DNA of 48,946 nt. It comes from Gammaproteobacteria bacterium. Lineage in GTDB: Bacteria; Pseudomonadota; Gammaproteobacteria; PS1; Pseudothioglobaceae. The translations under genes were made by a program, and so were the position numbers. Positions 14,540-48,946 of this stretch are shown here, piece by piece; the stretch's first letter is position 1; the number at the start of each line of letters is the position of its first letter. The notes under the pieces are model-generated. The model searched no databases and was not told the origin of the DNA. It saw nothing but the letters and a program-made list of their open reading frames with translations. The DNA lies in contig JASLYC010000010.1 of the NCBI GenBank assembly GCA_030739975.1, forward strand, positions 1 through 48,946, written 5' to 3'.

Positions 14540-14983
14540 TTATTTTTCTGGGATTGGAAGATAAGGCAACATTTCAACAACATGAGAGTAGCCATCTGCG
14601 CCAAGTCCAGCCACCACAGCATCTGCAGCAGGCGCCACAAATGTATTGTGCCTAAAAGACTCCCTTAAATGAGGATTCGAAATATGAAGCTCAATTTTGT
14701 ACCCAGAGAAAGACTTTAATGCATCATGGATTGCAATAGATGTATGAGTATAAGCAGCTGCATTTATGACGATTGCATCAATTTTATTTTTTATTGCATC
14801 CTGAATCCATCCAACCATCTCACCTTCATAGTTTGACTGCATAAACTTAACATCGATACCTTTTTTGTTCCCAATTTCAATACATTTTGTTGCAATATCA
14901 TCGAGCGTTTCATAGCCATAAATTTCAGGCTCACGGGTTCCAAGTAAATTTATGTTTGGACCATTAATTACGTATACTTTCAT
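14540..14983 (-). CDS. aroQ: Type II 3-dehydroquinate dehydratase
   Basis: MKVYVINGPNINLLGTREPEIYG, NAAAYTHTSIAI, ELHISNPHLRESFRHNTF; start moved to the internal Met. Confidence 0.9.
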   Translation of the reverse strand: MKVYVINGPNINLLGTREPEIYGYETLDDIATKCIEIGNKKGIDVKFMQSNYEGEMVGWIQDAIKNKIDAIVINAAAYTHTSIAIHDALKSFSGYKIELHISNPHLRESFRHNTFVAPAADAVVAGLGADGYSHVVEMLPYLPIPEK

Positions 14984-14987
14984 AATA

Positions 14988-15455
14988 TTATGCAACTTTG
15001 TTAAGTTTTTTTGAAATAGCATTAATAGCAATTACATAACTATAAACACCAAGACCACTCACAAAGCCCATTTGGCCTTCTGGCACCTGCAAAGGTTTTG
15101 TTATGTCCGCGCCCTGCTTGAAAATATTTGCAATGTGCACCTCTATTACTGGCTTCTTCTGAAGGGTCAATGTTTTAATGGCAAGACAGTGTTTTGCAAA
15201 TTCTGCAGTTAATGCGTGAGAATATCCTACAGGATTAATAATGACCGCATTAAAATCTTCGGAGTCTTTAAGTAAAAAACCGAGCAGCTCATCCTCATCA
15301 TCAGTTTGACGAAAATCTAACTCAATATTTAGGCCTTTACAAACATTTTTACATTTCTCTTTTATTGCGCTAAGAGTAATCTCTCCATAGAATTCATCAT
15401 AAATGCTCAAGTCTGCCAAACCTGGGCCATTCAAAATTAATAATTTGTTTTTCAT
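14988..15455 (-). CDS. Type II dehydroquinase-like paralog with altered active-site positions
   Basis: LILNGPGLADLSIYDEFYGEITL, VIINPVGYSHALTAEFA, VIEVHIANIFKQGADITKP align with AroQ motifs; directly upstream of aroQ with a 4-nt gap. Confidence 0.75.
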   Translation of the reverse strand: MKNKLLILNGPGLADLSIYDEFYGEITLSAIKEKCKNVCKGLNIELDFRQTDDEDELLGFLLKDSEDFNAVIINPVGYSHALTAEFAKHCLAIKTLTLQKKPVIEVHIANIFKQGADITKPLQVPEGQMGFVSGLGVYSYVIAINAISKKLNKVA

Positions 15456-47689: not shown

Positions 47690-47808
47690 AGCCTAGCAAT
47701 GTCCTACTCTCACATGGGGAGACCCCACACTACCATCGGCGCTAAGTGGTTTCACTTCTGAGTTCGGGATGGGATCAGGTGGGTCACACTTGCTATTGTC
47801 GCTAAGCA
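47690..47808 (-). rRNA. rrf: 5S ribosomal RNA
   Basis: Minus strand TGCTTAGCGACAATAGC...CCCGAACTCAGAAGTGAAACC...GCGCCGATGGTAGTGTGGGGTCTCCCCATGTGAGAGTAGG...GCTAGGC. Confidence 0.95.
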
Positions 47809-48027
47809 TACTGGTTGTCTGACAATGAAATATAATTCAAGCCAAACGAAATTAAAAGTTTTTATACCGCCACCTTTTGGTGGGACATAACAAAAAAATA
47901 CACGAGCAAAGTTTGTAATCACATTTTAAAAGTTAAAAATGAATGTTGAAAAAACATCAAGTTAACTTATTTATTGGCATATTGCCATTTGACACAACAA
48001 CATCTCCAAATAGTTTGGGTGTTATAT

Positions 48028-48946
<919 letters not shown>

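Follow-up and report, generated by a model that had tools for sequence, protein, structure and literature searches.

A type II dehydroquinase paralog without most catalytic residues is encoded directly upstream of aroQ in Thioglobaceae and other gammaproteobacteria and is probably a non-catalytic partner of AroQ

The gene pair and its relationship to type II dehydroquinases

The window analyzed here, i.e., the whole stretch of 48,946 nucleotides from contig JASLYC010000010.1, carries two adjoining genes of the type II 3-dehydroquinate dehydratase family (Table 1), for which we use the names PAR (the dead paralog) and COMP (the AroQ encoded beside PAR). The mechanically called aroQ open reading frame starts at a TTG codon at position 15031 and overlaps PAR; homology to AroQ begins at the ATG codon, and the protein is therefore 147 aa long and separated from PAR by only 4 nt. 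At the end of the contig, positions 47691 to 48946 hold 5S rRNA together with a 23S rRNA gene of which only the 3' part is present, indicating that the contig breaks inside an rRNA operon.

Table 1. Features of the PAR-aroQ pair in the window; active-site residues are numbered as in the Mycobacterium tuberculosis enzyme
Feature	Position	Strand	Length or content	Basis
PAR (dead dehydroquinase paralog)	14988..15455	(-)	155 aa, upstream member of the pair	ORF, Pfam DHquinase_II, AlphaFold2 fold
aroQ (COMP, partner AroQ; type II 3-dehydroquinate dehydratase, active-looking)	14540..14983	(-)	147 aa	ORF, Pfam 4.4e-52
Gap between PAR stop and aroQ ATG, TAA-TATT-ATG	14984..14987	(-)	4 nt	Sequence
PAR residues 12-24, lid-loop segment	15384..15422	(-)	GLADLSIYDEFYG; Asn12 to Gly, lid Arg19 missing	Alignment columns, reference residues PMC6011038
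PAR residues 81-101	15153..15215	(-)	Longer helix, 7-residue insertion at the Asp88 site of AroQ; no Asp	Alignment
PAR residues 105-120	15096..15143	(-)	EVHIANIFKQGADITK; Glu99 and His101 kept, Ser103/Arg108/Arg112 lost	Alignment

The sequence-only reading had taken the upstream open reading frame for a homologue of AroQ, with coordinates that proved correct, and this assignment was borne out by the Pfam DHquinase_II profile (76.3 bits, E value 2.5e-21, cut-off 23.3), of which positions 1 to 137 of 138, i.e., the full domain, were covered by PAR residues 4 to 147. The neighboring AroQ scored 175.9 bits against the same profile. PAR fell far below the cut-off of the NCBIfam aroQ equivalog model TIGR01088 (80.4 versus 169.85 bits). 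As a side observation, the partner AroQ of the window passed the thresholds of three further type II models of NCBIfam and, with 163 bits, lay slightly under that of TIGR01088, so that equivalog-based naming could fail for the COMP clade. A single-chain AlphaFold2 model of PAR (pLDDT, 82.8; pTM, 0.83), with a predicted helix at residues 84 to 98, had type II dehydroquinases as its best PDB matches (TM, ∼0.8), and the modeled PAR retains the flavodoxin-like type II dehydroquinase fold. Thus, PAR shares fold, length, and overall alignment with type II AroQ (PF01220, TIGR01088).

Loss of the active site and selection on PAR

In type II enzymes, the lid residues Arg19 and Tyr24 and Asp88 of a neighboring subunit are essential, while Asn75, His81, His101, Ser103, Arg108, and Arg112 act in binding or catalysis (PMC6011038, PMC10772564). 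The motifs quoted in the sequence-only reading proved correct, and the alignment showed the lid-loop arginine and the downstream arginine to be missing from PAR, as that reading had stated. The loss goes further: Asn12 (replaced by Gly), Ser103 (replaced by Ala), Arg108, and the general base Asp88 are gone together with Arg19 and Arg112, and the stretch of the window PAR that corresponds to the Asp88-bearing part of AroQ holds no Asp at all. Nor are the arginines supplied from nearby positions, since the only Arg in the entire protein, R49, lies elsewhere, within DFRQ. PAR therefore differs from type II AroQ in lacking most catalytic residues, including the lid Arg, Asp88, and Arg112, whereas its partner is an ordinary type II member by its active-site residues.

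This contrast extends to the other pairs described below, in which the PARs kept 2 to 6 of 11 active-site residues (n = 26) and every partner AroQ (26/26) kept all 11; the complete set was also present in 81 of 85 other AroQs. Tyr24, His81, Glu99, and His101 are kept in the window PAR. The retention of Tyr and His emphasized in the sequence-only reading thus holds for this protein and fails as a family trait, with Tyr24 and His81 each missing in 17 of the 26 PARs and His101 replaced by Arg in 6. Moreover, the lid loop is wholly deleted in L071 (the pair of genome G440) and L075, and similarly shortened in L164. The Arg or Asp matches seen in the PARs of L052, L070, L076, and L077 are few, fall in variable gapped loops, and depend on the alignment. 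Asn75 (25/26) and Glu99 (26/26) are conserved, as is a PAR-specific signature composed of NGPGL[SA]D, Asp-Asp replacing Asn-x after the FRQ strand, and K-P-V-I-E-V-x-I-x-N-I-F. Considering these residue and lid-loop losses across orthologues, the known dehydroquinase mechanism is ruled out for PAR as a family. Judged from the aligned sequences, PAR is a paralog of type II dehydroquinase that is catalytically dead, i.e., a pseudoenzyme.

PAR evolves faster than AroQ, with a median dN/dS of 0.25 compared with 0.07 among Thioglobaceae pairs with dS between 0.1 and 1 (pairwise NG86 estimates, the comparisons not being independent). These ratios indicate that PAR is under purifying selection and less constrained than AroQ. 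In addition, all 26 genomes have an open PAR reading frame of full length, and divergent lineages of gammaproteobacteria, in part with genomes as small as ∼1.5 to 1.7 Mb, have retained PAR together with AroQ.

Distribution and history of the pair

In all, 26 PAR-aroQ pairs were found, 18 from Thioglobaceae (SUP05 relatives) and 8 from other gammaproteobacteria, and this recurrence indicates that the pair is not due to chance. Gene order and strand were identical in all 26, with PAR adjoining aroQ. Within the family, 18 of 83 genomes carried PAR, each time directly upstream of aroQ and at a spacing of −4 to +4 nt (−4 to 0 nt in all but the window pair). Nearly all of the 26 pairs had genes overlapping, abutting, or at most 16 nt apart, the exception being L070 (121 nt, counted to the first listed start). 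Seven pairs came from the genome collection and belonged to Woeseiaceae and other gammaproteobacteria (L070, L071, L073, L075, L076, L077, and L078), their genomes containing exactly two DHquinase_II genes each, and one further pair (G467) came from the family of G440. In an even sample of 369 genomes of the class, PAR was confined to G000 and G440, and partner-clade AroQ likewise occurred only in these two PAR-bearing genomes; the pair is therefore rare and patchy. Neither PAR nor the partner AroQ was found alone where flanking DNA was visible. A partner-type AroQ in G457 sits at a contig edge with its upstream gene outside the contig, and the AroQ closest to the COMP clade, that of G129, has no PAR beside its gene. 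Relatives of PAR were not found in viral contigs. Distant matches (L080 to L133; 27 to 37% identity; Bacteroidota, Desulfobacterota, Bdellovibrionota, and others) were rejected as ordinary AroQs with an NGPN-type motif, and TGA codons that seemed to lie in frame in certain proteobacterial AroQs were normal stops inside the alignment (checked for L193).

Phylogenetic analysis placed all PARs in one clade (support, 100/100) and all COMP proteins in another (100/98), the latter separate from the native AroQs of both Thioglobaceae and f154. The partner AroQ groups apart from the native AroQs of Thioglobaceae, and a local duplication of their aroQ was therefore rejected. PAR may have arisen as a tandem copy of the partner AroQ, a PAR+COMP clade not being rejected (p-AU = 0.379), although PAR branches are long. 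In both gene trees, G001 grouped with G065, G069, and G070 and not with its genus mate G000, which fits transfer or inheritance of both genes as a unit. Pairwise distances of PAR and COMP were correlated (r = 0.89 for all pairs and 0.58 among distant lineages), as is expected for any two coinherited genes. The neighbors of the pair varied by lineage (pirin with a pyrE-like gene, rapA, the ATP synthase epsilon chain, an aminotransferase, and others), and conservation is therefore limited to the pair itself.

Three Thioglobaceae genomes without PAR (G030, G064, and G077) have the native slot dsbD-aroQ-accB-accC filled (dsbD, accB, and accC being names assigned from the sequences), while aroQ was absent beside accB-accC in six genomes with the cassette (G000, G001, G003, G013, G020, and G440). 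A search of 14 genomes, among them carriers of PAR, gave no type I dehydroquinase. Considering the empty native slot and the lack of a type I enzyme, the pair has displaced the native gene and supplies the sole recognizable dehydroquinase in the genomes checked. Separately, neither a type II nor a type I dehydroquinase was detected in four genomes of genus g3 in the same family (G025, G034, G060, and G078; completeness, 89 to 97%); either their assemblies have gaps here, or the enzyme that normally catalyzes this step is absent or of another kind.

Possible role of PAR beside AroQ

The invariant pairing, joint travel, and replacement of the native gene suggest that the dead copy assists AroQ as a helper subunit. 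On these genomic grounds, we consider PAR to be, with somewhat better than even confidence, a non-catalytic and probably obligate pseudoenzyme partner of the adjoining AroQ, probably in a mixed oligomer. A more specific version, which we advance tentatively, is a heteromeric type II dehydroquinase in which AroQ depends on PAR, or is under its allosteric control, in a mixed dodecamer, the two-gene form spreading horizontally and replacing the single-gene enzyme. Adjacency and cotransfer are also compatible with a functional link in which the two proteins do not touch. Single-copy AroQs elsewhere work without a partner, and this, together with the complete active site of the partner AroQ, suggests that the latter may be active alone.

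Mechanistically, PAR and AroQ would be made in step through translational coupling and would most likely coassemble as AroQ trimers and PAR trimers (or as mixed trimers) in a tetrahedral dodecamer, within which PAR may stabilize or allosterically control AroQ. In the type II dodecamer, which consists of four trimers, each active site takes Asp88 from a neighboring subunit on the other side of the intra-trimer interface (PMC10772564). Since Asp88 comes from the neighboring AroQ subunit and the window PAR has no Asp there, a PAR subunit inside an AroQ trimer would cost activity, and separate homotrimers of each protein, joined via the inter-trimer face, are favored. The C-terminal helix of the partner AroQ is unusual, with Ala135 replaced by Val in 73% and Ala138 and Ala139 replaced by Leu, while PAR keeps ordinary residues at these positions; residues of this helix make inter-trimer contacts in the Corynebacterium glutamicum enzyme (PMC10772564), so these differences are in line with a joining of AroQ and PAR trimers. 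A further peculiarity of the partner AroQs is Pro104 (positions 14672 to 14674 of the window), present in all of them, rare in other AroQs, and equivalent to P105 of the C. glutamicum enzyme, in which replacement by Ile or Val lowers activity (PMC10772564). Having retained Asn75 and Glu99, the PAR pocket could accommodate a ligand and serve as a sensor.

The sequence-only reading had left the function of the paralog between a different substrate and regulation of AroQ, possibly in a mixed oligomer. The tie to AroQ is strongly supported by adjacency in 26 of 26 pairs, clades of their own, movement as a unit, and replacement of the native aroQ, while a different substrate handled by related chemistry is disfavored because orthologues have lost Tyr24, His81, His101, or the entire lid loop; PAR may still bind a ligand without converting it. 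The broader idea of neofunctionalization, by which PAR binds or converts another metabolite (e.g., a shikimate-pathway or quinate-like compound) and shares only regulation with aroQ, with no contact with AroQ, could draw on the conserved PAR-specific pocket signature and the retained Asn75 and Glu99; however, the acid-base residues Tyr24, His81, and His101 vary freely and several PARs have no lid loop, losses that do not resemble a conserved new active site, and PAR was found only beside COMP-clade AroQ and not alone, which renders this explanation unlikely.

Slightly less probable still is a purely structural or folding role, chaperone-like or as a scaffold to other enzymes, that leaves catalysis unchanged. 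Translation of PAR just before AroQ, its retained fold, and the loose conservation of its active-site region relative to scaffold glycines and core would suit such a role, but the near-invariance of Asn75 and Glu99 seems more than a scaffold requires. As for a functionless duplicate in decay, the lost catalytic residues and rapid evolution of PAR are what recommend it; it already conflicts with what selection and conservation show, i.e., full-length reading frames throughout, dN/dS well below 1, and maintenance across lineages that include small genomes, and we regard it as highly improbable. A non-catalytic partnership with AroQ thus remains our preferred reading.

Pairs of an enzyme and its dead paralog are best worked out in trypanosomatids, and HisZ, a comparable non-catalytic protein, is related to histidyl-tRNA synthetase and not to its partner HisGS. 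In trypanosomatids, the AdoMetDC prozyme and the deoxyhypusine synthase paralog DHSp heteromerize with the active copy and activate it (PMC5201418; PMC3663545, ∼3000-fold). Like PAR, they are dead paralogs of metabolic enzymes; they differ in being eukaryotic and in belonging to unrelated enzymes, and for PAR such complex formation and activation are putative. In bacterial HisZ-HisGS, a non-catalytic regulator controls a small biosynthetic enzyme in a hetero-oligomer (PMC9734150, PMC10795190), whereas PAR is a paralog of its own partner. Candida albicans Aro1 keeps an inactive type I dehydroquinase domain, with the reaction carried out by a type II enzyme (PMC9074039), and thus resembles PAR in that a dead dehydroquinase is retained alongside a working type II enzyme; it differs in its unrelated type I fold and fused multienzyme context, its type II enzyme being encoded by a separate gene, DQD1. 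Known type II dehydroquinases are described as homododecamers (PMC10772564), and a dead or paired type II dehydroquinase was not found in the open-access literature, most subscription papers being outside this scope.

PAR-aroQ therefore represents a small bacterial case of an enzyme with a dead paralog in a central and thoroughly studied pathway, whose dehydroquinase step is an antibacterial target. Natural replacement of a single-gene enzyme by a two-gene form offers a direct test of why a homomer turns heteromeric, in which close genomes with and without PAR can be compared and the loss of catalytic residues is graded, up to full deletion of the lid loop. If true, a heteromeric dehydroquinase would place a regulatory site for shikimate flux at a step for which no such control is known.
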